Of a stretch of 64,000 bases of DNA, positions 2,019 through 64,000 are shown in pieces (position 1 is the stretch's first letter; each line of letters starts with the position of its first letter). This DNA is from Nonomuraea sp. PA05 (GTDB taxonomy: Bacteria; Actinomycetota; Actinomycetes; Streptosporangiales; Streptosporangiaceae): the NCBI RefSeq assembly GCF_008086045.1, contig NZ_VSEY01000003.1, positions 124,001 to 188,000 on the forward strand, given 5' to 3'. The position numbers and the translations under genes were made by a program. The notes beneath the pieces were generated by a model that ran no database searches, had not been told where the DNA came from, and saw nothing but the letters and a program-made list of their open reading frames with translations.

Positions 2019-4539
2019 CCAGTCGTACACCGACTTCCTCGCGGGCAAGGCCTCGCTCGCCGAGCCTGCCGGGTTCACCACGGAGCCTGTCGAGGTGCAC
2101 CCAATCTTGAAGCCTCACCAGCGGGACATTGTGGTGTGGGCGGTCCGAGGTGGCAGGCGGGCGGTGTTCGCCGCATTCGGACTCGGCAAGTCCGTGATGC
2201 AGTTGGAAATCCTGCGCCTCACGCTCGCCCACTCCGGTGGCGCACGCGCCCTCATCGTCTGCCCGCTCGGTGTGCGAGGCGAGTTCATCCGGGACGCCGC
2301 GATGCTCGGCCTCACCGTGACGTTCGTCCGCGCCTCCGGCCAGGTGAACGGGCCGGGCCTGTACGTCACGAACTACGAGAGCGTGCGGGACGGGAAGCTT
2401 GACCCGAACCTGTTCGACGCCGTCAGCTTGGACGAGGCGTCGGTGCTGCGCTCGTTCGGCTCCAAGACGTACCAGACGTTTCTGTCCCTGTTCGGCGATG
2501 TCCCTTACCGGTTTCTGGCGACCGCCACGCCGGCGCCGAACCGGTACAAGGAGCTCATCCACTACGCCGGGTTCCTCGGGGTCATGGACACCGGGCAGGC
2601 CTTGACGCGCTTCTTTCAGCGCGACTCGACCAAGGCGAACAACCTGACCTTGTACCCGCACAAAGAGCGCGAGTTCTGGCTGTGGCTCAACACGTGGGCG
2701 GTGTTCCTACAGAGTCCTTCCGATCTCGGCTACGACGACACCGGATATGACTTGCCGCCGATCGAGGTCCGGCACCACGAGGTGGCGGTGGATCACTCTG
2801 ACGCGCCGGTCGACCGGGACGGACAGGCCGCGTTGTTCCGCGGTGGCGCGCTTGGTGTCGAGGATGTGGCGCGGGAGAAGAGGGACACGCTCCCGGCCCG
2901 GATCGACCAGCTCATGTCCATCGTGGGCGCCCACGTCGCCGACCACCCGGGTGACCAGATCATCATCTGGTGCGACCTGAACGCCGAACAGGACGCCATC
3001 GAGCGCGCTCTCGCCGCCGCAGGCCTGACCTACTCCTCCGTTCACGGGTCTCTCCCGCTGGAGGAGGCCGAGAGACGGCTGCAGCAGTGGCGCGACCGGG
3101 AGACATACGCCTTGATCGGCAAGCCGGTGATGCTCGGCCAGGGCATGAACCTGCAGCAGTGCTGCACGGCCGTGTTCGTCGGCGTCACCTACAAGTTCAA
3201 CGACCTGATTCAGGCCGTCCACCGCATCCAGCGCTACGGACAGACCCGCACCTGCTACGCGCACATCATCCATGCCGAGTCCGAGCGTGAGGTCGTCCGC
3301 ACCTTGCAGGAGAAGTGGGCCCGACACAAGGAACTGACCTCGACCATGAGCGACATCATTCGCGAGCACGGCCTGTCGAGTGCCAGCATCGCCGCCGAGC
3401 TTGTCCGCTCCATGGGAGTGGAGCGGATCGAGGCGAGCGGCAACGGCTGGCTGGTGGCCAACAACGACTGTGTGCTGGAGACGCAGGCGATGGAGGCCGA
3501 CAGCGTCGACCTGATCGTCACGAGCATCCCGTTTTCGAACCACTACGAGTACACGCCGAGCTACAACGACTTCGGGCACACCGACAACAACGATCACTTC
3601 TGGGCCCAGATGGACTTCCTGACGCCCGAGCTGTTGCGGGTGTTGCGGCCAGGCCGGGTCTACGCCTGTCACGTCAAGGACCGCATTCTGTTCGGAGCGG
3701 TGACCGGCGCCGGCGTGCCCACCGTCTCCCCCTTCCATGCCGAGGCACTGATGCATGGCCGCCGCCATGGGTTCGACTACATGGGCATGATCACGGTGGT
3801 GACGGACGTGGTCCGAGAGAACAACCAGACGTACAGGCTCGGCTGGTCTGAGCAGTGCAAGGACGGCACCAAGATGGGCGCCGGGTCCCCCGAGTACATC
3901 CTGCTGTTCCACAAGCCGCAGACCGACCGTAGCCGCGGCTACGCCGATGTCCCCGTTGTGAAGGATAAGGCCTCTTACACGCGGGCCCGGTGGCAGGTGG
4001 ACGCGCACGCCTTCTGGAGGTCGTCCGGTAACCGGCCGCTCACCCCGGAGGAGTTGGCGGCGCTCCCGCCCGACCAGATGTCACGGCTGTTCACGGAGAA
4101 CACGCTGCGCCAGGTGTACGACTACGAGGCGCACGTCCGCATCGGCGAGGCGTTGGAGGGGCGGGGCGCGCTCCCAGCGACGTTCATGAGCCTCGCCCCT
4201 GGCTCGCACCACCCGGAGGTCTGGCACGACGTCAACCGGATGCTCACGCTCAACACCGAGCAGTCCAGGCGGCGCCAGCAGCTCCACGTATGCCCTCTCC
4301 AGTGGGACATCGTGGACCGGCTCATCACCCGGTTCAGCAACCCGGACGAGCTCGTTTATGACCCGTTCGGAGGTCTGTTCACGGTGCCCGTTCGGGCGCT
4401 CCATCTTGGTCGGCGCGGCCGAGCCGCGGAACTCAACACCAGCTACTTCCTCGACGGCATCAAGTATCTCCAGGCGCAAGAGCGGAAGGCCGACATGCCC
4501 GGACTCTTCGATTTGATCGAGGTGGCCGATGCGTCCTGA
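2008..4539 (+). CDS. SF2 helicase-DNA methyltransferase fusion, 843 aa
   Basis: N-terminal half: SNF2/SF2 helicase with Walker A FGLGKS at residues 57-62, DEAS (motif II) at 142-145, TATP (motif III) at 172-175, then a C-terminal helicase lobe containing VMLGQGMNLQQC and IQAVHRIQRYGQ. C-terminal half: beta-class amino-methyltransferase with catalytic SIPFS (a DPPY-type variant) at about 505-509, the typical LLRVLRPGRVYACHVKDR strand-helix, and the SAM motif YDPFGG near 784. Order (catalytic motif before SAM motif) matches N6-adenine/N4-cytosine enzymes. It probably translocates on or remodels phage DNA while methylating it. ATG 2008 or 2011 follows a GAGG and lies inside the previous gene's end. 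No nuclease domain is seen. Confidence 0.92.
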   Translation: MMPSQSYTDFLAGKASLAEPAGFTTEPVEVHPILKPHQRDIVVWAVRGGRRAVFAAFGLGKSVMQLEILRLTLAHSGGARALIVCPLGVRGEFIRDAAMLGLTVTFVRASGQVNGPGLYVTNYESVRDGKLDPNLFDAVSLDEASVLRSFGSKTYQTFLSLFGDVPYRFLATATPAPNRYKELIHYAGFLGVMDTGQALTRFFQRDSTKANNLTLYPHKEREFWLWLNTWAVFLQSPSDLGYDDTGYDLPPIEVRHHEVAVDHSDAPVDRDGQAALFRGGALGVEDVAREKRDTLPARIDQLMSIVGAHVADHPGDQIIIWCDLNAEQDAIERALAAAGLTYSSVHGSLPLEEAERRLQQWRDRETYALIGKPVMLGQGMNLQQCCTAVFVGVTYKFNDLIQAVHRIQRYGQTRTCYAHIIHAESEREVVRTLQEKWARHKELTSTMSDIIREHGLSSASIAAELVRSMGVERIEASGNGWLVANNDCVLETQAMEADSVDLIVTSIPFSNHYEYTPSYNDFGHTDNNDHFWAQMDFLTPELLRVLRPGRVYACHVKDRILFGAVTGAGVPTVSPFHAEALMHGRRHGFDYMGMITVVTDVVRENNQTYRLGWSEQCKDGTKMGAGSPEYILLFHKPQTDRSRGYADVPVVKDKASYTRARWQVDAHAFWRSSGNRPLTPEELAALPPDQMSRLFTENTLRQVYDYEAHVRIGEALEGRGALPATFMSLAPGSHHPEVWHDVNRMLTLNTEQSRRRQQLHVCPLQWDIVDRLITRFSNPDELVYDPFGGLFTVPVRALHLGRRGRAAELNTSYFLDGIKYLQAQERKADMPGLFDLIEVADAS

Positions 4540-49589: not shown

Positions 49590-50036
49590 ATGGCTCGATA
49601 CACGGCCGCCGTCGAAGGTGTCGCCTCCGGCACGGCCGCCAAGACGCTGCTGCAGATCGTCGCGGGCACGCAGCGGTGCGGCGTGTACGGCATCCGCGTC
49701 TCCTGTAAGGGCACCAGCTCGATCGCGGAGCCGGTACGGTTCCGGCTGGTCCGGCAGACGACGGCGGGCACCTCGGGCGGTACGGCGTCGATCGGGTCGG
49801 TGGACTCCTCAGGCGTCTCAGCGACCGCGACGGCGAACATCACCTTCTCCTCCACCGAACCCACCTCTGGTGATCTGCTGTTCAGTCAGGAGGTGCACCC
49901 GCAGACCGGGATGGCCGAATACATTCCGCTCGGCGACGAGATCGTGATCCCGGCATCCGGTCGGCTCGGCCTGACGGTGACCGCCGCCGCGACCGTCAAC
50001 TGCACCGTCCAACTGTACTGGCGCGAAGGCCACTGA
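49590..50036 (+). CDS. beta-rich tail/virion protein, 148 aa
   Basis: ATG with AAAGGGGCC upstream. Single beta-sandwich (YTAAVEGVASGTAAKTLLQIVAGTQRCGVYGIRVSC ... TVQLYW). Similar small proteins occur next to fibre genes. Unknown exact role. Confidence 0.65.
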   Translation: MARYTAAVEGVASGTAAKTLLQIVAGTQRCGVYGIRVSCKGTSSIAEPVRFRLVRQTTAGTSGGTASIGSVDSSGVSATATANITFSSTEPTSGDLLFSQEVHPQTGMAEYIPLGDEIVIPASGRLGLTVTAAATVNCTVQLYWREGH

Positions 50037-54919: not shown

Positions 54920-55317
54920 CCGAGTGGCTGACACCGGCGGTCATCACCCTGCTGGCCGGAGGACTGATGTCAGCCCTCGGAGTCCTCGTCAAAGCCCGCA
55001 TCGACCTGCGGAAAGCCAAACTCGACGAGGAACGCCAGCCGGTAGAGCTGGAGAACGTGTTCATCGGCGGCGCCGAGAAAGCGGTGGCCGCTTTGCAGGT
55101 GGCGCTGGACCGCGCCGAATCCACGATCAACCGGCTCGAGCAGGCGCTGACGGAACGCGACCAGAAGCTGCAGGAGCGGGATCAGCGGATCGCCGAACTT
55201 GAGCTTGAGGTGACCAGGACGCTCGCCAGGCTGGCCAGGCTGCAGGAGCAGTGCGAAAAGCTCCAGACCCGCCTCGCCGACCTGAGAGTTGACCCGCGTG
55301 AGGGGGAGACCTTCTGA
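54916..55317 (+). CDS. one-TM coiled-coil lysis-region protein, 133 aa
   Basis: TTG 54916 overlapping the previous stop. One N-terminal TM (PAVITLLAGGLMSALGVLV) followed by a long coil (AALQVALDRAESTINRLEQALTERDQKLQERDQRIAELELEV). Such proteins occur between holin and endolysin genes in actinophages; perhaps a holin partner or spanin-like scaffold. Confidence 0.75.
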   Translation: MTEWLTPAVITLLAGGLMSALGVLVKARIDLRKAKLDEERQPVELENVFIGGAEKAVAALQVALDRAESTINRLEQALTERDQKLQERDQRIAELELEVTRTLARLARLQEQCEKLQTRLADLRVDPREGETF

Positions 55318-56117
55318 TGCCGTACCTGACGCAACTCGCCAAGGTGGCCCGACGCACGGGCTGCCCGGTGACGGAGGTGAGCGGTTGGAAGACGCGCGGC
55401 CACGGCCCGTTGACCGAGGTCGATGGGGTGGTTTGTCACCACACTGCGGGCTGGAACGACATGCACGTGGTCCGGGACGGGCGGCCCGGTCTGGACGGCC
55501 CTCTGTCGCAGATCTGGTTGAGGCGTGACGGGCGGATCTTCATCGTGGCTGCGGGCCGGTGCTGGCACAACGCGCCGAGCCTGTCGCTCGGCCACACCAA
55601 CAGCCGGTCGATCGGCATCGAGGCCGAGAACGACGGCAAGGCGCCGTGGCCAGCGGTGCAGCTCGACGCCTACAAGCGGCTGTGTGCCGAACTGTGCCGC
55701 GAGTTCGGGCTGCCGGTGTCCACGGTGAAGGGCCACAAGGAGGTCAACGCCTCCAAGCCCGACCCCCACAGCATCAACATGAACGCCTTCCGGAAGGACG
55801 TGGCCGCCCTGCTGAAGGGCGAACCCGCGGCGCCGGCCGACACCTCATGGACGGAGACCCTGGTGAAGGACCTGCCCCTGCTCCGGCCCGGAGACGACAA
55901 CTACGACGTCAAGACGGCACGGCACCTGCTGCGCTCCCGCGGCTACCTGCCCGAGACCGTGTACGCCGGCGCGGGGCTGGAGTCCTGGCTGGACCGCACC
56001 AGGTACGACGACGAGTTCGCCGGCCTCATCAAGGGGTTTCAGAAGCTGAAGAAGCTGGACGCAGACTCGCTGATCGGCCCCCAGACGTGGGCGGCGCTGG
56101 TGCGAGTCGCCTCGTGA
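55317..56117 (+). CDS. endolysin: N-acetylmuramoyl-L-alanine amidase with peptidoglycan-binding domain, 266 aa
   Basis: Amidase_2 domain: VVCHHTAG with zinc ligand H41/H42, GIEAENDG (residues 100-107), and the second ligand region KGHKEVNASKPDP with H140. C-terminal residues 190-266 are a PG_binding_1 repeat (YDVKTARHLLRSRGYLP ... FQKLKKLDADSLIGPQTWAALV). Cleaves the amide between muramic acid and L-Ala in host peptidoglycan at the end of infection. Confidence 0.95.
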   Translation: MPYLTQLAKVARRTGCPVTEVSGWKTRGHGPLTEVDGVVCHHTAGWNDMHVVRDGRPGLDGPLSQIWLRRDGRIFIVAAGRCWHNAPSLSLGHTNSRSIGIEAENDGKAPWPAVQLDAYKRLCAELCREFGLPVSTVKGHKEVNASKPDPHSINMNAFRKDVAALLKGEPAAPADTSWTETLVKDLPLLRPGDDNYDVKTARHLLRSRGYLPETVYAGAGLESWLDRTRYDDEFAGLIKGFQKLKKLDADSLIGPQTWAALVRVAS

Positions 56118-56339: not shown

Positions 56340-56882
56340 ATGCGTCTCAACAAGAGCGCGCTTCTGTTCGCTGCCGTCGTCGCCGCTGCTGGCCTCGCGG
56401 GCAGCCCGGCCTCGGCCTCCAGTTCCGCCCTCGATCTGCCTGTGGGCGCGCTGACGATCGTCGAGGTCGGCACCGACGCGATGGGCAGCGACACCTTCGC
56501 GAACCGGAACCGCGAGTTCGTCACCTTCAAGGTCACGGGCGGCGGCCCGGTGGACATCGATGGCCTGGTGGTTCAGGACAACTGGTCGAAGAACAACGGC
56601 AGCCCGCACACCTGCAACAAGTACGTGATCACCGGCCTGCCGGGTCAGGGCTCCGCCGCCTTGCTCGCCGCGGGCGAGACCGTGACCGTCTACAACGGCT
56701 CCCGGTGGGGCGGCAACTACAAGGACGGCTCCGCGTACCGGCTGTACGCCAAGAGCGACGTGGACTGTGGCGCCTCCGGCCACTTCCTGAACAACGACGC
56801 CGACTCTGTCTGGCTGACCTCCGGCGCCACGCAGGTGGCCAGCAAGAGCTGGGACTGGAACGGCGGATACACCGTCAACTAG
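56340..56882 (+). CDS. secreted lamin-tail-domain-like protein, 180 aa
   Basis: ATG with TAGGAGAGC upstream. N-terminal signal peptide (MRLNKSALLFAAVVAAAGLAGSPASASS, cleavage likely after SASA). Mature part reads IVEVGTDAMGSD, VDIDGLVVQDNWSKNN, LLAAGETVTVYNGSRWGG, HFLNNDADSVWLTSGATQVAS, the LTD beta-sandwich pattern. Cys pair probably disulfide-linked. A prophage gene for an exported domain protein suggests lysogenic conversion of the host surface. Confidence 0.82.
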   Translation: MRLNKSALLFAAVVAAAGLAGSPASASSSALDLPVGALTIVEVGTDAMGSDTFANRNREFVTFKVTGGGPVDIDGLVVQDNWSKNNGSPHTCNKYVITGLPGQGSAALLAAGETVTVYNGSRWGGNYKDGSAYRLYAKSDVDCGASGHFLNNDADSVWLTSGATQVASKSWDWNGGYTVN

Positions 56883-56891
56883 GAGGTCGTC

Positions 56892-57245
56892 ATGCAGTTC
56901 AAGCTGTTCGGCCGCGACCCTGCGGCCATCCTGTACGGCCTTCAGTCGCTGCTCGCGGTGCTGGTCGCGTTCGGGACGCTGACCGGTGACGCCGCCGACT
57001 ACACGATGGTGGTGGCGAACGGTGTGATGGCGCTGATCGTGGCGCTCACCACCCGCCCGGTCGTCGTCGCCGCCATCACTGGTGCCGCGCAGACGATCCT
57101 GACCGGGATCGTCGCGTTCGGGCTGCCCGGCCTCACCTTCACCACGGAGCAGCAGGGCGTCATCGTCGCCGCCCTGTCTGCGGTGCTGGGCCTGATGCTG
57201 AGGCAGAACCAGGAGCCGAAGGAGACGGCGGTCACCAGCGCCTGA
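56892..57245 (+). CDS. holin-like membrane protein, 117 aa
   Basis: ATG with GGAGG upstream. MQFKLFGRDPAAILYGLQSLLAVLVAFGTL, then MVVANGVMALIVALTTRPVVVAAITGAAQTILTGIVAFGLPG, and a third span (GVIVAALSAVLGLML), charged tail. The FGRDPAA...YGLQSLLAVLVAFG opening is typical of an actinophage holin family. Confidence 0.8.
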   Translation: MQFKLFGRDPAAILYGLQSLLAVLVAFGTLTGDAADYTMVVANGVMALIVALTTRPVVVAAITGAAQTILTGIVAFGLPGLTFTTEQQGVIVAALSAVLGLMLRQNQEPKETAVTSA

Positions 57246-57276
57246 TCCTGTCGGTCCCGTTCGTTAGCGTGGCGGG

Positions 57277-57447
57277 GTGGATCGGTGGATATGGGTGTCC
57301 CTCACGTACGCAACCTTCGCGGTCGTCGTCAGGGATGGCCGTGTCGTCGATGCCGCCCCGATCGCCCGCTGGTCCATCGGTAAGCCGGAGCAGCGGGTGG
57401 CCGACTACTACAAGCGGAAGGGCGCGGAGTTCGTGCCGCTACCCTGA
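57277..57447 (+). CDS. conserved small actinophage protein, 56 aa
   Basis: GTG 57277; TAGCGT (57265-57270) lies six nt upstream, a leaderless-type arrangement. Sequence WIWVSLTYATFAVVVRDG ... APIARWSIGKPEQRVADYYKRKGAEFVPL matches a small conserved phage protein of unknown role. Confidence 0.7.
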   Translation: MDRWIWVSLTYATFAVVVRDGRVVDAAPIARWSIGKPEQRVADYYKRKGAEFVPLP

Positions 57448-57605
57448 CAGTGTGGTCTCGCCCCGGTATGGCCGGGTGCCGGGACTGCCCCGATCCCGGA
57501 GCACGACAGAGCCCGAATCCGGGATCCCGTAGGCCTGCCGTCCCTGTTGGCGGTAGGAGCCGGTGAGAGGTCCAGGGCGCCCTCAACACCCGGCGATCTC
57601 GCCTT

Positions 57606-57631
57606 GAGCCCCCGCCATGGTGCGGGGGCTC
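57606..57631 (+). terminator. terminator-like hairpin GAGCCCCCGC/GCGGGGGCTC
   Basis: 10-bp perfect stem, 6-nt loop CATGGT. Ends the 57277 unit. Between 57448 and 57605 I see no supportable gene. Confidence 0.65.
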
Positions 57632-57638
57632 TCGTGCG

Positions 57639-57666
57639 TTTCGAGGCCAGCCAGGGGCGCTACGGT
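57639..57666 (+). promoter_or_regulatory. candidate promoter for the structured leader
   Basis: TTTCGA (57639-57644) and TACGGT (57661-57666) with a 16-nt spacer, right after the terminator and about 200 nt before the gene at 57866. Confidence 0.4.
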
Positions 57667-57671
57667 GCCGT

Positions 57672-57858
57672 CTGGATTGGGAGTCCAGTGCCCGACTGAC
57701 CGCCCAGGCCAGGGCGGCAGGGACAAGTGGGCTGTGAAGGGTGGAGAACCCCGGGGCCTGATGTCTCGGTTAGTAACTCGCTGGACTCTCGATGAGGGCC
57801 GGGTCATCCTTCGGGATGGCCCGGCCCCTCCTCCTCGTCGAGGAGGACGTTAGGAGGA
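57672..57858 (+). ncRNA. structured 5' leader with UUCG hairpin and SD-sequestering option
   Basis: In order: CTGGA/TCCAG 7-nt-loop hairpin (57672-57688); CCGCCC/GGGCGG hairpin (57700-57717); a 14-bp stem with UUCG loop (57796-57809 with 57814-57827, one G-U); then TCCTCCTC (57829-57836) pairing with GAGGAGGA (57840-57847). The same TCCTCC could pair with the SD TAGGAGG (57851-57857) of the next gene, so the element looks like a translational switch. Not a known riboswitch class to me. Confidence 0.5.
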
Positions 57859-57865
57859 TGGCGAG

Positions 57866-58069
57866 ATGGAGCACCAGCCACCCACTGTCGTCAGATGGCA
57901 TGACGGGCGCGACGTGTACGTCTACCCGGACGGGGTTCGCCTGTACGTTGATGAGGTCCAGGCGATGCTGGCCGGCGCGGAGGAGCGGCGCATGCAGCAG
58001 CTCACGGTGGACGACCTCGACGAGGTGAGAGCAAAGATCGAGGAACTTCGAGCAGCACGGGAGGCGTAG
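57866..58069 (+). CDS. hypothetical protein, 67 aa
   Basis: ATG 57866 with TAGGAGG eight nt upstream. VVRWHDGRDVYVYPDGVRLYVDEV, then a C-terminal coil. Downstream of the structured leader, so possibly regulated by it. Unknown. Confidence 0.7.
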   Translation: MEHQPPTVVRWHDGRDVYVYPDGVRLYVDEVQAMLAGAEERRMQQLTVDDLDEVRAKIEELRAAREA

Positions 58070-58218
58070 TGGCGAGAACCGCTCTGGACTTCTACGAAGA
58101 CGAAGACCCGAACGAACTGCTGGCCATCTTCGACGCCAGAGAGAACGGCGTCACCACCTGCCCGACGTCGGCGCTGCCGCACATGCTGCTGTCTCCTACG
58201 GCTACCGAAACAAGCTGA
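58069..58218 (+). CDS. small protein, 49 aa, possibly frameshifted
   Basis: GTG overlapping the previous stop. LDFYEDEDPNELLAIFDARENGVTTCP is protein-like, but the -1 frame from about 58164 then reads DVGAAAHAAVSYGYRNKLITR, which looks more natural than the present end. A single missing base could explain it; the gene may be broken. Confidence 0.5.
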   Translation: MARTALDFYEDEDPNELLAIFDARENGVTTCPTSALPHMLLSPTATETS

Positions 58219-58274
58219 TCACACGTATCGTCAACCTCAGGCCGGTCCCCTCGGGACGCCGCTGCCTGGGCTTA

Positions 58275-58310
58275 GAGGCCCTCGCTCTCCTCCGGGAGGG
58301 CGAGGGCCTC
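58275..58310. terminator. bidirectional terminator between convergent units
   Basis: GAGGCCCTCGC (58275-58285) pairs with GCGAGGGCCTC (58300-58310), inner CTCC/GGAG with TCCG loop. Separates plus-strand late genes from the minus-strand helicase unit. Confidence 0.75.
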
Positions 58311-58326
58311 TTCGGATTGTCGGCCC

Positions 58327-58923
58327 CTACTCGGACTCCGCCACGAGTCGCTTGAATTCGGCCCAGAATTCCGGGCTGCTGTTCGCCTGCAGGCTTCGTA
58401 GCGCTGATGATGCGTTGTCGAGGCGGACAGGGATGCGGCGCCGACGGAAGCCGGCCGCGACAGCAGCCGCGTGGATCGACTTCTCGCCGCGCTGTACGGC
58501 TTCAAACTCTTCTGGCGCCTCTGCTGCCAAACGGGCTGCCGTGTATTCGGTGGACTCTCCCTGGATGGAAAACCCATTAGATTCTAATGGGTTTTCTGCA
58601 TCAGCTCTGGGTCGGCCTGGCGTGCCCGCCTTGGCCTCGCGCAGGAGGATCAGGAGATCGGGATCGTCCGTGCCAACGATGCGATCGATTAGCTCGATGG
58701 ACGCGCCCAACCCTTCAGTGGCCGGCGTCGTGACGAACTCCATGAAGCTCTTGAACATCACCACGGTCCTGGATTTGACGTCGTACCGCTCCCGCCATGC
58801 TTCCGTCTCCAGCAAGCGCTTCAGGAGCCGCGGCACGTACGCCAGGCCTGATTCACCGTTATGAACGGCGCCACGAAGGTCCGTTACGAGGTGGTCGTGT
58901 TCCACCCGCGGATCGACCGTCAT
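58327..58923 (-). CDS. partner of HNH-helicase, 198 aa, contains palindrome
   Basis: ATG 58923 overlaps the helicase stop by 4 nt, so it is coupled to it. N-terminal helices (LAYVPRLLKRLLETEAWRERYDVKSRTVVMFKSFMEFV), then IELIDRIVGTDDPDLLILL, and a ParB/HTH-like end (ARLAAEAPEEFEAVQRGEKSIHAAAVAAGFRRRRIPV). A TTA codon and an AT-rich 11-bp inverted repeat occur mid-gene (58569-58595), unlike the surrounding codon use. No named family. Confidence 0.75.
   Translation of the reverse strand: MTVDPRVEHDHLVTDLRGAVHNGESGLAYVPRLLKRLLETEAWRERYDVKSRTVVMFKSFMEFVTTPATEGLGASIELIDRIVGTDDPDLLILLREAKAGTPGRPRADAENPLESNGFSIQGESTEYTAARLAAEAPEEFEAVQRGEKSIHAAAVAAGFRRRRIPVRLDNASSALRSLQANSSPEFWAEFKRLVAESE
58569..58595. 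repeat. AT-rich palindrome AAAACCCATTA...TAATGGGTTTT inside CDS
   Basis: Arms 58569-58579 and 58585-58595, 11 bp perfect, 5-nt loop GATTC. T-runs flank both sides, so it would terminate transcription in either direction or serve as a binding/recombination site. It sits in an otherwise GC-rich gene. Confidence 0.7.
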
Positions 58924-60812
58924 TCGCCCTCCCGTGCGCCGGGAGCTACGCCGGTGGCCAGCCACTGCTTCGCGAACTGCAGACGCCTCTCAAGCTGTTC
59001 CTCGCTGCACTGACGGACTCCCCGTGACACGGGCACGCCAACGAGCTGGTTGAGGCGCCCGTTCACGGTGCCGTAAGGGATGCCGTAGGCACGCGCGACC
59101 CGCTGCGCGGCGGTGTTGTTCTGCTTCTTCAGCTTCTCCTTACGCTCGAACGGCGCGTCGGCGGCCTCCGAGGGGGGAACGGGCTGGGCCGTTGTGAAGG
59201 TGGCGCCTGCGTTGCGCAGGAGCTTGGCCACCAACGCGGTCGGCATGGCGGTGGTTGTCGGGTCCATCCGCTTGACCTGCTCGGCGTTAGCCAGCTCGGC
59301 CGGCGTGATGGTGTCGGAGTCGACGATGACGCCCTCGTCCGTTGGCGTCGCCGAGATGGGGGAAAACAGCGAGAAGAGCGGCTGCTCGCCCGACGGCCCA
59401 GAGCTTTCCCCGCCCGAGTCTCCGAGCAGTTCGGCGTCCTGCTGGTCGAGGATGTGGTCACGCTGTTGCTTGATCTGTGCGGCCATGGCCCGCAGCCTTG
59501 AGTCGTCGGGGATGTAGAGGTAGGCGGTCGGGTCGTCCTCGCCGGGGCGGATTCGTACGAGCCTGCCGACGACCTGGCGGAAGAACAACTCGGTGATCCA
59601 CGGTGTGGCGTAGACGCCGACCCGGAGTCGGGGGATGTCCACGCCTTCGCTGACCTTGCGTATCGTGACGATCCACGGAGCGGTCGACGACTTGAAGGTC
59701 TTGATCCGGCCGTCCGCCTCCGGCTCATCGGAGATCGCGAGAACGGGCGTCTGGCCTAGCGCGGTGAGCAGCTTGACCACTTCGCGGGCGGTGTAGGAGT
59801 CCTCGCAGAAGACGATGCCGCCGGCTTCGGGGTCGCTGGTGCGCACTTCGGCGAGCTGCGTGTTGGCCTCTTTGAGGACGGATGGCAGCCATTCGCCGGT
59901 GGGCGAGAGCGCGGTGCGCAGCCGGTGGGCGGCGTCGCGGTCATTGAGTTCATCCTCGAAGGTGGCGCTGCGGTTGGCGCCATTGGGAGCGGTCCACTCC
60001 ATGAGTCCGCCGCGGCGGGGGAAGAAGACGGCACGGACGACGCCGTCGGCCAGAGCCCGGTCGTAGCCGTAGCGGAAGTCCGGCGCGCCAACCCCGTCGA
60101 CGTAGTTGACGAACGGGATCTCGTCGTTGTCGGACCGGAAGGGTGTGCCGGACAGCAGGAGCTTGGCCACGGCTGGCTCGAAGGCGGTTCGTGCTCCAGC
60201 GCCCCAGGCGCGCTCTTCTCCGCCGCAGTGGTGGATCTCGTCGAGGATGACCAGCGTCGGCTTCTCGGAGACGAGCTTGCGGTAGATCTGCGGCTGCTTG
60301 GCGATCTCGGCGTAGGTTGCGGCGCACCCTTGCTCGTCAGTGGCGAGGCGGCCATCGGCGGCGTGCCAGCCGGGGTTGATGCTGATGCCCTGTCTGCTGA
60401 ACTCTTCGGCCCATTGGCTTTCGAGGCGTGCGGTCGGTACGGCGGCCACGATGCGTTGGACGCGCCCCGAGGCGAGCGCTCGGCGGGCGATTTCGATCGC
60501 CAGCCTGGTCTTGCCTGCGCCCGGGGTGGCTTCGACCAGAAAGCCGTTGCCTTCGCGCGGAATCCACAGGGTGTACTCCCTGAGGGCGTCCTCCTGCCAG
60601 GCCCGGAGCTGACTCATGCGATCCCCCTTCTGGAGATTGCATTCGGGACACAACGCTTCCCCGTTGCTCACGTCCGTTGCCCCTCCGTGGGAGTAGGGCA
60701 TGACGTGATCTCCGTGCCAGCCCGGCTGGAGATCGACTCCGCAGCGACTGCAGCGTCCATCGTTGGCCAGGAAGAGAGCGGCCCGTTGGGATTGGTTGAA
60801 ACGGCGGCTCAT
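58920..60812 (-). CDS. HNH-SF2 DEAD/DEAH helicase fusion, 630 aa
   Basis: Residues 21-60: HNH nuclease (CSRCGVDLQPGWHGDHVMPYSHGG ... CPECN) with DH at 35-36. Residues 65-450: SF2 helicase with Walker A TPGAGKT (96-102), DEIH (191-194), SGTP (221-224) and QVVGRLVR (motif VI). C-terminal about 150 residues end in a helix-turn-helix (NTAAQRVARAYGIPYGTVNGRLNQLVG). ATG 60812 follows GGGAGG by 7 nt; GTG 60818 is alternative. Predicted to move on DNA and cut or nick it; role (defence, replication, recombination) unproven. Confidence 0.88.
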   Translation of the reverse strand: MSRRFNQSQRAALFLANDGRCSRCGVDLQPGWHGDHVMPYSHGGATDVSNGEALCPECNLQKGDRMSQLRAWQEDALREYTLWIPREGNGFLVEATPGAGKTRLAIEIARRALASGRVQRIVAAVPTARLESQWAEEFSRQGISINPGWHAADGRLATDEQGCAATYAEIAKQPQIYRKLVSEKPTLVILDEIHHCGGEERAWGAGARTAFEPAVAKLLLSGTPFRSDNDEIPFVNYVDGVGAPDFRYGYDRALADGVVRAVFFPRRGGLMEWTAPNGANRSATFEDELNDRDAAHRLRTALSPTGEWLPSVLKEANTQLAEVRTSDPEAGGIVFCEDSYTAREVVKLLTALGQTPVLAISDEPEADGRIKTFKSSTAPWIVTIRKVSEGVDIPRLRVGVYATPWITELFFRQVVGRLVRIRPGEDDPTAYLYIPDDSRLRAMAAQIKQQRDHILDQQDAELLGDSGGESSGPSGEQPLFSLFSPISATPTDEGVIVDSDTITPAELANAEQVKRMDPTTTAMPTALVAKLLRNAGATFTTAQPVPPSEAADAPFERKEKLKKQNNTAAQRVARAYGIPYGTVNGRLNQLVGVPVSRGVRQCSEEQLERRLQFAKQWLATGVAPGAREGE

Positions 60813-61120
60813 CCGCACGCCTCCCCCGAAGCATGGCGCGGCGGCGTCCCCATTAACGCACAGTGAACCGCGCGGATCCGTGAGCAGAAGCGTGCCCTAT
60901 TCGAATCCGCTGCGTAGTGATTCAGCGCCTATTGCGAAGAGTTCTCGCATCAATACGGACAGCGATTACAGCACCGTGAAAGCGCCATCCAAAGATCATT
61001 GTTATGAAGATGATGGCAGAGTGTGATGCGGATCACTTGAATGCGCGATGGATTCATTAGATGATGCCCGCTTTCACTCGTTTGCCCTCATGTGATGGAA
61101 TTCTCCACAGTCGGTTGACA
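60813..61120. other. 308-nt AT-richer intergenic stretch, likely promoter of the helicase unit
   Basis: No ORF with a ribosome site seen. Base composition is visibly more AT-rich than the flanks. It must contain the promoter for the minus-strand helicase pair and probably the end of the small gene at 61121. I see no clear inverted repeats beyond short ones. Confidence 0.4.
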
Positions 61121-61264
61121 TCACCCAACGGGATGCTCTCGAAACAAGTCCCGCACGGCCTGGCTCGCCTCGGGCGGCACCTCCTCCGTGGCGAGGATGT
61201 GCTCCTCCATCTCCCTGCGTAGCCGTACTTCCGCCAAGCGCTGCTCAACCTCTTCCGGGTCCAT
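61121..61264 (-). CDS. small acidic helical protein, 47 aa
   Basis: ATG 61264 with GAGG 9 nt upstream (ATG 61273 is in frame). Sequence MDPEEVEQRLAEVRLRREME ... QAVRDLFREHPVG is a single charged helix. 308 nt upstream of the helicase start and same strand. Unknown; could be part of the same regulatory unit. Confidence 0.55.
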   Translation of the reverse strand: MDPEEVEQRLAEVRLRREMEEHILATEEVPPEASQAVRDLFREHPVG

Positions 61265-61344
61265 GGCCGACATCCTCACCCCGGTACGTGATCACCCGCA
61301 GCGATGTCCGTATCATCCCCTCGAACCACTATCGGGGGAGCGTC

Positions 61345-61662
61345 ATGGCGGATCGTGAAGTACCGAGTGACCTGCTGGAACTCAAGAAGGAGTTCCTCAA
61401 GGCCGAGGCGGAATGCGAGAGGATCAGCAGGGCGCTGCCATCCAGCGTCGACGTCGTAGCGCTCGAAGCAGAACGAGACACCGAACTGGAGCAGCAGCTC
61501 AACGAGGCGCGGGCGTGGAGGCTGAAACTGGTGGACGCCATCTACCGGCGCCCGGCCATGGCGAAAGGCGCGGAGGACCGGCTCAGGACCAGCCTGGGAC
61601 TGACACAGGCCGCCAAGGACGCCCTCGCCGCGGAGGCTGGCGACGGGTCCCCGCCCCCATGA
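61345..61662 (+). CDS. coiled-coil protein, 105 aa
   Basis: ATG 61345 after GGGGGAG. Helical: LLELKKEFLKAEAECERISRAL and VALEAERDTELEQQLNEARAWRL. A TATCAT box 30 nt upstream is a promoter candidate. Divergent from 61121-61264. Unknown. Confidence 0.65.
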   Translation: MADREVPSDLLELKKEFLKAEAECERISRALPSSVDVVALEAERDTELEQQLNEARAWRLKLVDAIYRRPAMAKGAEDRLRTSLGLTQAAKDALAAEAGDGSPPP

Positions 61663-61663
61663 C

Positions 61664-61697
61664 AACGCCCCGGCTGTGGGGAAGCAGCCGGGGCGTT
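61664..61697 (+). terminator. terminator hairpin, AACGCCCCGGCTG/CAGCCGGGGCGTT
   Basis: 13-bp perfect stem (61664-61676, 61685-61697), loop TGGGGAAG. Shares its loop with the terminator at 61994. Confidence 0.75.
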
Positions 61698-61787
61698 CCC
61701 ACATACCCCCCACGGCGCGGCGGTCCGCCGAGAAAAGCAGGGAACCTCGCGACACCAGTGCGACACAGCGGTGCTCCACTGACCGGC

Positions 61788-61985
61788 ATGACGAACACCT
61801 ACGAGATGCCAGACGGCGGCATCGAACGCGTCGGCGGCCACCCCGTCCTGCACGACGAAGCGGAAATCGACACCGCGTTCGCCGTCCGCTCCCTGCTGGA
61901 GTCGCAGTCCAGCGCGGAGGCGCGGCACCGTGTTCTCGCGTGGGTGGCCGCGAGCACTCTGGATGAAGACTCCACCCCAGTCTGA
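61788..61985 (+). CDS. hypothetical protein, 65 aa
   Basis: ATG 61788, no clear SD. MTNTYEMPDGGIERVGGHPVLHDEAEIDTAFAVRSLLES. Bracketed by two related terminators, so it is a mono-gene unit. Unknown. Confidence 0.6.
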   Translation: MTNTYEMPDGGIERVGGHPVLHDEAEIDTAFAVRSLLESQSSAEARHRVLAWVAASTLDEDSTPV

Positions 61986-61993
61986 ACAGTCAG

Positions 61994-62032
61994 ACGCCCC
62001 CGGTCATGGGGAAGCGACCGGGGGCGTTCTTT
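61994..62032 (+). terminator. intrinsic terminator ACGCCCCCGGTC/GACCGGGGGCGT + TCTTTT
   Basis: 12-bp stem (61994-62005, 62016-62027), loop ATGGGGAAGC, then TCTTTTG. Strong classical form. Confidence 0.8.
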
Positions 62033-62044
62033 TGTGCGCAGACG

Positions 62045-62317
62045 TCAGTAGATCTGCATGAGGTGCCGGTCCTCCCCGCCGATGCGGACCGCCGCGTCAC
62101 GGTACTCGGGATCAGCCAGCCTGTGGCGGTTGGACTCGGGTTCCAGACTGACGTTCTCCGTGTTGAGCAGGTGAAGGAGGGCCGCGTCTACCTCGGCCCG
62201 CGTCCACGCGCCCAGCCTGGCGCGGATCTCGTTCAGCCGAACCCAGTTGTTCTGTCGCGGGGCTGCCCTGTACGCGGCGATGATCTCCGCTATCAGGGCC
62301 CGGTCCGGGCGGCTCAC
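62045..62317 (-). CDS. hypothetical protein, 90 aa, winged-helix-like
   Basis: Minus strand. LIAEIIAAYRAAPRQNNWVRLNEIRARLGAWTRAEVDAALLHLLNTENVSLEPE reads like a winged helix (three helices plus wing). Overlaps the next gene by 4 nt. Unknown. Confidence 0.65.
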   Translation of the reverse strand: MSRPDRALIAEIIAAYRAAPRQNNWVRLNEIRARLGAWTRAEVDAALLHLLNTENVSLEPESNRHRLADPEYRDAAVRIGGEDRHLMQIY

Positions 62318-62616
62318 GTGTTCACCGCCTCTTGTGCCTCCCCGGTGGATCGTGTGGCCCCTGATGGGTTGACGGGGATCACCTTCACCTTGCTAGAGGG
62401 TGGCACTCCGTGTGCGTCCGTGTCTGTCTCGATTTCGACGACCACCAGCGGCGGCCCGTCGTCGGCGGTGTGGTCCACGTTCAGGATGAGCGGCCAGCGC
62501 CCGCCTGCTCGCGGTGGGTGCCAGCCGTTCATGGACACCAGCCGGTACATGCTGCCGCCCCTATACCGCATCTCCAGCTCGGACGCCGGCATCGTGATGG
62601 TGATGTCCTCCGCCAT
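62314..62616 (-). CDS. hypothetical beta protein, 100 aa
   Basis: ATG 62616 with AAGGAGGTG upstream, ATGA overlap with 62317. DITITMPASELEMRYRGGSMYRLVSMNGW ... beta sandwich. Unknown. Confidence 0.65.
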   Translation of the reverse strand: MAEDITITMPASELEMRYRGGSMYRLVSMNGWHPPRAGGRWPLILNVDHTADDGPPLVVVEIETDTDAHGVPPSSKVKVIPVNPSGATRSTGEAQEAVNT

Positions 62617-62697
62617 GGAAGGCACCTCCTTGTAGGTGTGGGAAGGGAATGTGGGCCCCGGCCGCGAGGTTCGGGCAGCCGGAGCCGGATGGGTGGG

Positions 62698-62714
62698 ACA
62701 CCCTCAACGGGTGT
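62698..62714 (-). terminator. hairpin ACACCC/GGGTGT between minus genes
   Basis: 6-bp stem, 5-nt loop, downstream of 62723-62932 on the minus strand. Confidence 0.45.
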
Positions 62715-62722
62715 GGGATTAG

Positions 62723-62932
62723 TCAGTCGTTCACCAGCGAGAACGGGGGACGACCAGTGCCGGGCTTCCACCGGCCGACAACCAACTGCTGCGCGTTCGG
62801 GTACTTAACCCTCCTGTCGATGACGACGTCACCGTCAGGCAGGAGGCGTACCTCGTCGGGGCGGAGGTTCTCTTCCGGGTACTGGTCGATGAACCTCTGC
62901 TTGATCTGCGAGGTCTCGTCGGGGCGAGTCAT
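62723..62932 (-). CDS. hypothetical protein, 69 aa
   Basis: ATG 62932. TRPDETSQIKQRFIDQYPEENLRPDEVRLLPDGDVVIDRRVKYPN; mixed alpha/beta. Overlaps the start of the next minus gene's end by 4 nt. Unknown. Confidence 0.6.
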   Translation of the reverse strand: MTRPDETSQIKQRFIDQYPEENLRPDEVRLLPDGDVVIDRRVKYPNAQQLVVGRWKPGTGRPPFSLVND

Positions 62933-63090
62933 CTGCGTCCTCGGAACAGCGCCGTGAGCAGCGTGTGCTCCTGCTCCGGTGTGGCGTCGGCCCATGTGCG
63001 CCCGTTCCACACCCACGCGGCTGCGGGCTGCTGTCGTGGCTGCTGTCTGCGGGTGTACAGCCGGTTCCTGTCTTGCTTCCGTTTGTTCAT
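62929..63090 (-). CDS. small basic protein, 53 aa
   Basis: ATG 63090 with AAGGAGAACC upstream. Arg/Gln-rich N-terminus (MNKRKQDRNRLYTRRQQPRQ), then WVWNGRTWADATPEQEHTLL. Follows ftsK in the same direction. Could be prophage or chromosomal; unknown. Confidence 0.6.
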   Translation of the reverse strand: MNKRKQDRNRLYTRRQQPRQQPAAAWVWNGRTWADATPEQEHTLLTALFRGRR

Positions 63091-63131
63091 GCCGGTTCTC
63101 CTTGGTTGGTTGCCGGATGAGATGGCTGTGC

Positions 63132-64000
63132 TCACGGCGCTTTCTGCGTCGCGCGGAGATTGCCGAGGAGGTCGGGCAGGTCGTCGGGCTTGACGAGCAC
63201 CTCGCGTGCTTTAGAGCCCTCGCTTGGACCGACCGCGTTCCGGCTCTCCAGCAGGTCCATCAGCCGCCCCGCCTTGGCGAACCCGACCCGCAGCTTGCGC
63301 TGCAGCATCGAGGTCGAGCCGAACTGCGTGGTCACGATCAGCTCGGCCGCCTGGATCAGCAGGTCGAGGTCGTCGCCGATGTCGAGCGCCTGCTTGGGGG
63401 CGGGCGCGGCCGGTTCGAGGTCTCGGTAGGCGGCGGCGCCCTGCTTCTTGCAGTGGGCGACGATCTGCTGCACCTCTTGCTCGGTGACCATGGGGCTCTG
63501 CAACCGGATGGGCTTGTTCTCGCCCGCGGGCAGATACAGGCCGTCGCCCTTGCCGATGAGGTTTTCTGCGCCCGGTTGGTCGAGGATGACCCGCGAGTCG
63601 GTGAGGCTGGAGACGGCGAAGGCGAGCCTGGACGGCACGTTCGCCTTGATCAGGCCGGTGACGACGTCCACCGACGGCCGCTGCGTGGCGATTACCAGGT
63701 GGATGCCCGCCGCGCGGGCGAGCTGGGTGATGCGCACGATCGAGTCCTCGACGTCGCGCGGGGCCACCATCATCAGGTCGGCCAGCTCGTCCACGATCAC
63801 CAGCAGGTACGGGTACGGCTGGTAGACCCGCTCGCTGCCCGGCGGCGGCTGCAGCTTGCCCGCCCGCACGGCCTTGTTGAACTCGTCCACGTGCCGGAAC
63901 CCCGACGCCGCCAGGTCGTCGTAGCGCCGATCCATCTCGCCCACGACCCATTCGAGGGCCTCGGCGGCCTTCTTCGGGTTGGTGATGACCGGGGTGATGA
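63132..64000 (-). CDS. ftsK: FtsK/SpoIIIE DNA translocase, C-terminal part (5' end outside window)
   Basis: Opens at the right edge and ends at 63132. [29 protein letters not shown], then Walker [14 protein letters not shown], then [30 protein letters not shown], and the gamma winged helix ([50 protein letters not shown]). Natural C-terminal end except for the final RATQKAP. Chromosomal housekeeping gene: it pumps sister chromosomes apart at the septum. It marks the right flank of the prophage. Confidence 0.96.

Follow-up and report, generated by a model that had tools for sequence, protein, structure and literature searches.

An HNH nuclease domain and an SF2 helicase share one reading frame in a prophage of Nonomuraea sp. 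PA05, and what reads as a fusion looks, from its sequence, like two cistrons in a single frame. A 630-amino acid HNH-helicase and a 565-amino acid helicase are probably both made, the shorter one from an internal start at position 60617. This is proposed because the start codon is conserved, the synonymous codons chosen at the site are those of start codons, a Shine–Dalgarno-like stretch lies ahead of it, and most relatives with separate genes part at this point. The gene is followed by a small partner protein. On balance, the pair is taken to be a conserved, mobile and mainly phage-borne DNA-processing module, consisting of a two-product gene and a coupled partner, with a job on phage replication or recombination intermediates.

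The stretch of DNA analyzed, referred to here as the window, covers 64,000 nucleotides of contig NZ_VSEY01000003.1 and belongs to a 13.1-Mb assembly of 131 contigs. The fusion and its partner had been described in a first-pass annotation of the window, from which the internal start was absent; it is new here. The features are listed in Table 1.

Table 1. Features of the helicase and partner genes, in window coordinates.
Feature	Position	Strand	Basis
Long ORF, HNH plus SF2 (XPB/RadD/UvsW-like) helicase, 630 aa	58920..60812	-	Pfam HNH and ResIII; profile matches
HNH domain, residues 1-63	60624..60812	-	Alignment of 47 sequences
Candidate Shine–Dalgarno-like GGGGGAGG, 7 nt ahead of the long-form ATG	60820..60827	-	Direct reading
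Predicted internal start ATG (Met66)	60615..60617	-	In-frame start in 72/74 distinct fusions
Shine–Dalgarno-like AGAAGGGGGAT inside the ORF, in the QKGD codons closing the HNH	60621..60631	-	Direct reading; family codon tests
Predicted short form, helicase without HNH, 565 aa	58920..60617	-	Inferred from the internal start
Partner protein, 198 aa, unnamed family	58327..58923	-	AlphaFold, library searches, adjacency
ATGA overlap, helicase TGA stop and partner ATG start	58920..58923	-	Direct reading
Strong hairpin just past the partner stop	58274..58311	-	Fold z -3.5 (- strand), -4.1 (+ strand)

The fused reading frame and its proposed internal start

The union of an HNH nuclease with an SF2 helicase, as described in the first-pass annotation, is borne out by Pfam. 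The HNH domain is matched by PF01844 with an E-value of 1e-11 and 45.2 bits against a cut-off of 21.4, at residues 23-67 as numbered on a 632-amino acid reading from a GTG at 60818. The SF2 core is matched by PF04851 (ResIII, E 1.5e-14) and PF00270 (DEAD, E 1.2e-6). An alignment of 47 sequences was assembled from relatives whose helicase scored 350 bits or more, with the window sequence added and locus L165 excluded. In this alignment, Cys21, Cys24, His33, Asp35, His36, Asn50, Cys55, Cys58 and Asn59 of the HNH domain are invariant. The long ORF therefore carries an intact HNH nuclease motif, including its metal and zinc ligands, and cleavage is predicted. The zinc cysteines are gone in the relatives L093:3132-4919 and L094:4191-5984, which retain the ADH and Asn residues. 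A profile built from the 47 sequences matches the solved structures of archaeal XPBII (2.5e-23), RAD25, RadD (3.9e-17) and T4 UvsW (3.6e-7). The AlphaFold model of the helicase, computed as a single chain, has a mean pLDDT of 85.0 and a helical C-terminus. The C-terminal helix-turn-helix (HTH) proposed earlier finds no family support, the best HTH-type Pfam match being DUF2089-HTH at an E-value of 0.21.

The internal start was assessed in a set of fused relatives chosen blind to the start codon, in which one frame contains both an HNH motif and a match to the helicase profile scoring 100 bits or more. This set comprises 75 loci, which form 74 clusters at 90% identity and 37 at 60%. In these relatives, the HNH domain closes with CN-x-x-K-G and the start codon follows 2 to 6 codons further on. 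An in-frame ATG, GTG or TTG is present at +2 to +6 past the closing glycine in 72/74 of the clusters at 90% and 35/37 at 60%, with the proviso that the loci are mutually related and that clustering by identity lessens this kinship but does not remove it. Five-codon control windows in the same genes, placed from +12 to about +400, contain such a codon at a mean of 22% and 23%, respectively, with highest values of 49% and 54%. For ATG alone, the count is 52/74, with a control mean of 8.5% and a highest value of 27%. The two exceptions are L167, which has an ATG at +8, and L178, which has no start codon at +2 to +6.

A comparison set of HNH-type motifs, with no helicase found beside them, has a start codon at the site in 4/18 cases. 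The four include L191, which is probably a divergent relative. In this locus (L191:5989-8280), the HNH is followed by an in-frame ATG at +4, the protein is matched by the helicase profile over the HNH only, and a partner relative comes next.

Conservation of a hydrophobic amino acid at the site, in place of a start codon, is rejected on the grounds of codon choice. Among the clusters lacking ATG, valine is encoded by GTG in 15/15 (4.3 expected) and leucine by TTG in 4/5 (0.5 expected), where mixed codons would be expected if the residue alone were conserved. The codons that precede the site are also biased: the glycine codon is GGA or GGG in 49/72 (25.3 expected; z 6.0) and the lysine codon is AAA in 41/73 (17.2 expected; z 7.6).

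The excess of Shine–Dalgarno complementarity depends on the 16S tail that is chosen. With the longer, actinobacterial tail CCTCCTTTCT, complementarity exceeds that of synonymous shuffles at z -5.0, and at -3.3 among the 48 genes with a high GC content at third positions. This tail was read in a 16S gene of the same genus after the shuffle test; the assembly that contains the window yielded no 16S gene. For an E. coli-type tail, the values are -1.8 overall and 0.2 in the same 48 genes. A longest-match measure against synonymous shuffles gives z -8.8, and a short anti-Shine–Dalgarno string gives no clear excess (mean -6.48 vs -5.87 kcal/mol, with 4/73 genes at p ≤ 0.05). Few genes are significant individually, with 13/73 under 0.1 for the longer tail.

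In the window itself, the predicted fold pairs AGAAGGGGGAT with an AUCUCC just upstream and also pairs the ATG, at an unexceptional energy (z -0.9). Initiation at 60617 may thus be weak, or may need ribosomes arriving from upstream. A gene caller based on codon scores starts the gene at 60617; it was trained on this very gene and misplaced the start of the partner, so that its call carries little weight. In the gene tables of three plasmid records that hold the pair, the helicase begins at this codon in two. Conservation of a start codon does not by itself prove that a product is translated from it.

A homing-type origin has also been considered, in which the HNH would be a selfish gene that settled ahead of a helicase gene and the internal start would be the helicase's old start. 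Small HNH ORFs occur with no helicase detected, and also as separate ORFs beside helicases, which speaks for this origin. However, drift should erase a superseded start, and this one is retained, together with its codon bias, in nearly all of the fusions counted above. The HNH residues are, moreover, invariant in the alignment. A homing origin is accordingly regarded as very improbable.

Split relatives, the partner and their linkage

HNH and helicase are encoded as separate ORFs in 21 loci, one of which (L193) was recognized by a weak match. In 19/21 of these, the helicase frame offers a start codon 7-23 nt past the first base of the closing glycine codon, the exceptions being L175 and L193. 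In a quick tree built from 73 fused, 16 split and 1 chromosomal sequences (90 rows), at least 11 changes between the fused and split states are required, five of which are forced by well-supported branches.

Within the genus, 54/54 genomes contain a helicase match that starts at profile position 68 or 69, i.e., without the HNH. Among the matches listed in the genus, only those of G000 and G036 span both HNH and helicase. The predicted short form is similar in extent to this HNH-less helicase and would thus match a complete helicase in layout. The sole chromosomal HNH-less copy placed in the tree falls among phage sequences.

These relatives bear on the proposal that the pair is a module for repair or genome maintenance, a bacterial counterpart of XPB-Bax1 that phages have taken up to keep their DNA intact, not to replicate it. 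Its nearest solved relatives are XPBII/RAD25 and RadD, an HNH-less relative is universal in the genus with its one placed copy sitting among phage sequences, and proteobacterial genome loci possess HNH and helicase without the partner. Nevertheless, the nuclease is of the HNH type and is absent from the universal copy, and no link of the pair to DNA damage is found among the results, so that a role in repair is considered quite unlikely. The proteobacterial loci in question (L125, L128, L129, L131, L123, L127 and L141), in which no partner was found, include Pelagibacteraceae, SAR116 and Halomonadaceae, and fused and split forms are interleaved there in the tree.

The partner is joined to the helicase gene by a 4-nucleotide ATGA overlap, which had been noted earlier and was read directly. 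Its single-chain AlphaFold model has a mean pLDDT of 89.4, with C-terminal helices at residues 125-135, 137-144 and 150-157. The earlier description of the partner as unrecognized stands, as none of four libraries (Pfam, PHROG, NCBIfam and PADLOC) gives the window protein a match at E-values up to 1. The same description had given the partner a ParB/HTH-like end, and this was not recovered: the window protein has no Pfam match, and across 68 partner relatives, 36 Pfam families match at E up to 1, with each of the 25 listed families matching one or two members at a best E-value of 0.011. Two unnamed PHROGs match one of the 68 members each (best E 0.0014). On this evidence, the family is without a strong match in the libraries used. 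The partner ORFs of L109, L113, L132, L133, L136 and L138 are about 425-460 amino acids long, roughly twice the usual length, and may contain an extra domain.

Co-occurrence of the two proteins, proposed in the first-pass annotation as a check, is found widely. The partner is adjacent to 64/77 full-length helicases recovered by the helicase search, that is, in 48/50 viral contigs and 16/27 genome loci. The counted loci are distinct, score at least 200 bits, span at least 1500 bp and have at least 500 bp of downstream room; a partner was counted as adjacent if encoded on the same strand no more than 150 bp away. Weaker, shorter and duplicate matches were removed ahead of counting, and one scan drew on the best 80 of 270 matches. 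The 13 helicase loci that lack the partner are L042, L118, L121, L122, L123, L125, L127, L128, L129, L131, L137, L141 and L159, and a frame-by-frame search of 3 kb downstream recovered no partner at any of them. As 11/27 genome loci, the proteobacterial ones included, are without a partner, the partner is not needed everywhere.

In the reverse direction, a helicase is adjacent in 21/24 loci found by way of the partner; a 25th such locus, L107, yielded no partner ORF. The three exceptions comprise a broken helicase frame (L086), a sequence that ends too early (L097) and a locus in which an HNH ORF alone was detected, about 1.7 kb upstream of the partner (L105).

The pair is mobile. It is present on three Streptomyces plasmids, and Saccharomonospora phage PIS 136, the sole phage record matched at the limits used, encodes both proteins (38.5% and 35.2% identity), their genes overlapping by 4 bases. 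The viral contig IMGVR_UViG_2895427314_000003 carries a pair identical to that of the window. Both proteins recur in a genome of the same genus (G036), 87% and 76% identical to those of the window, and the DNA alongside them resembles the endolysin region of the window. Bacterial genomes seldom carry the partner: it was matched in 4/396 genomes of the phylum, with 8 candidates per genome scored among the matches listed, and two of the four are strong, including the window's own. In the genus, 6/54 genomes have a partner match, of which two hold the pair, three hold a lone relative (L013-L015) and one gives a short, weak match. No helicase match was found within about 20 kb around the three lone relatives.

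Genomic setting and proposed role

The pair runs antisense to the late genes, beside an endolysin gene (55317-56117) and a holin-like gene (56892-57245), so that its placement next to the lysis block was correctly described at first. Between these two lies a gene (56340-56882, + strand) for a secreted-looking protein of 180 amino acids, a same-genus relative of which has a weak lamin-tail-domain match (E 4.8e-7; 30.6 bits, below the cut-off of 34.3). The hairpin past the partner stop is possibly a bidirectional terminator without a T run, judging by its predicted fold; the terminator scan called no T-tailed terminator at it. No sigma-70 promoter was found by a scan of 57200-61400.

An integrase-family gene, a YqaJ recombinase gene and a RecT gene lie about 8-16 kb to the left of the window, and the pair is thus not part of the YqaJ/RecT recombination block. 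A 791-amino acid ORF of the same prophage (2164-4539, + strand) encodes a Helicase_C domain fused with an N6/N4 DNA methylase. An FtsK/SpoIIIE protein with a gamma domain is encoded at window positions 63132-64000 (- strand) and on to about 65279, and Pfam matches none of the three genes that lie beyond it. The FtsK gene was considered as the attachment site and rejected: no exact repeat of at least 20 bases was found between the flanks, with window positions 61001-64000 compared against the region from contig position 84001 to about window position 50000.

The setting differs in other phages. From 36/39 loci, 116 neighboring genes were picked with a rough gene caller. Ten large neighbors of relatives, picked by hand, comprise seven for replication or recombination, one DNA methyltransferase and two of unknown function, a count that serves as a lead rather than a test, as the genes were self-picked and stand without a background rate from random phage genes. 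The seven are DnaB (L021), primase (L022), RecT (L096) and replication initiators (L044, L091, L179 and L183). The neighbors match 203 PHROG families. Primase/helicase, with 5 members, leads the 25 families listed, which include DnaB-like, replication initiation, primase, RecE, RecT and RusA families, alongside families of transposases, endolysins and regulators; a single gene may match several families. The window copy is itself not beside replication genes.

This divergence bears on the suggestion that the pair serves superinfection exclusion or defense, in which the partner would find incoming phage DNA, the helicase would travel along it and the HNH would cut, in the manner of a restriction enzyme. 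The window copy fits such a role as an antisense unit by the lysis block with a hairpin after it, apart from the prophage's YqaJ/RecT genes. Similar lysis genes accompany the pair in the same-genus genome, the pair occurs on the three plasmids, and the helicase resembles ResIII and PbeA. Against this, the partner has no PADLOC match in a scan of the two proteins, the similarity to defense models being confined to the helicase and HNH, and relatives adjoin replication and recombination genes in several phages. The earlier proposal of an anti-phage system is therefore unsupported, and a defensive role is judged unlikely.

The best reading of the pair is as a module for phage DNA replication or recombination that would serve in this prophage as an accessory unit. 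The position of the pair past the lysis genes and antisense to the late genes, with YqaJ and RecT elsewhere in the prophage, stands against this explanation.

Under this replication-linked reading, the gene's own upstream start would give the HNH-helicase, and the bare helicase would come from a second ribosome-binding site and start codon located where the HNH ends. Translation of the partner would be coupled through the ATGA overlap. The partner is probably a DNA-binding or loading subunit, which would presumably contact the helicase. The helicase would travel along DNA or open it, and the HNH of the long form would nick it, with the ratio of long to short form setting how frequently the motor cuts. 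The likeliest job would be to process branched or recombination intermediates while phage DNA is replicated, analogous to a helicase-nuclease repair pair (XPB-Bax1) or to a branch-migration helicase acting with a junction nuclease. More tentatively, it has been postulated that this is a widespread, unnamed phage system of three proteins from two frames, in which the internal start rations the armed, cutting motors and the partner recognizes DNA.

Comparison with known systems

The nearest precedent for a long and a short product is found in McrB-L and McrB-S, which come from one gene through an in-frame internal start and show that an enzyme can be tuned by a long and a short form of itself. 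The N-terminal DNA-binding part is missing from McrB-S. Translation of McrB-S begins at an internal site in the same frame, and the short protein can interfere with McrB-L (PMC3874153). McrBC differs in that McrB is an AAA+ GTPase, whereas here an SF2 ATPase would lose its nuclease. Pfam AAA models score below cut-off on the helicase, with HNH and ResIII/DEAD above, and among 25 of 26 PADLOC matches listed, no Mcr model appears save for the HNH stretch of a type IV enzyme (E 0.012). Cas11 small subunits also arise from an in-frame internal start within a larger gene, and their production by internal translation is described in PMC11899642. There, internal initiation produces a small subunit of Cascade rather than a nuclease-free motor.

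Archaeal XPB-Bax1 resembles the long form in tying an XPB-type helicase to a nuclease, and XPBII is the best structural match by sequence. Bax1 is a separate protein and is not known to be an HNH nuclease, and we know of no small partner of XPB-Bax1 like the one described here. The coupling of an XPB-type motor to Bax1 is treated in PMC7293015 and PMC7672443. The XPB family model NF045503 (NCBIfam) gives 11.1 bits against a cut-off of 610. RadD (YejH) shares the SF2 core, aligned over residues 70-429 with an E-value of 3.5e-9, and its family model NF053632 scores 35.5 bits against a cut-off of 720. To our knowledge, RadD has neither an HNH domain nor a partner.

The best PADLOC match of the helicase is PbeA of the archaeal PbeABCD system (E 7.7e-20). 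This similarity is that of an SF2 helicase; the partner differs in matching no Pbe model, nor any other model, in a PADLOC scan that covered the two proteins. PbeABCD acts with DNA phosphorothioation, according to PMC9239217. The model for a phosphorothioate restriction enzyme (TIGR04095) gives 47.1 bits against a cut-off of 600, and that for an EcoAI-type R subunit of Type I restriction (NF046051) gives 37.1 bits against 550. No publication naming this combination was found in literature that largely excludes subscription journals.

In two of the three plasmid records, the gene was begun at the internal start codon, and the HNH half is thereby omitted from the annotated protein. Surveys of helicase-nucleases may, by inference, miss such genes. 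Helicase-nuclease machines power replication, repair and anti-phage immunity, and a conserved internal start that releases a nuclease-free motor would, if real, be a simple way to tune cutting.
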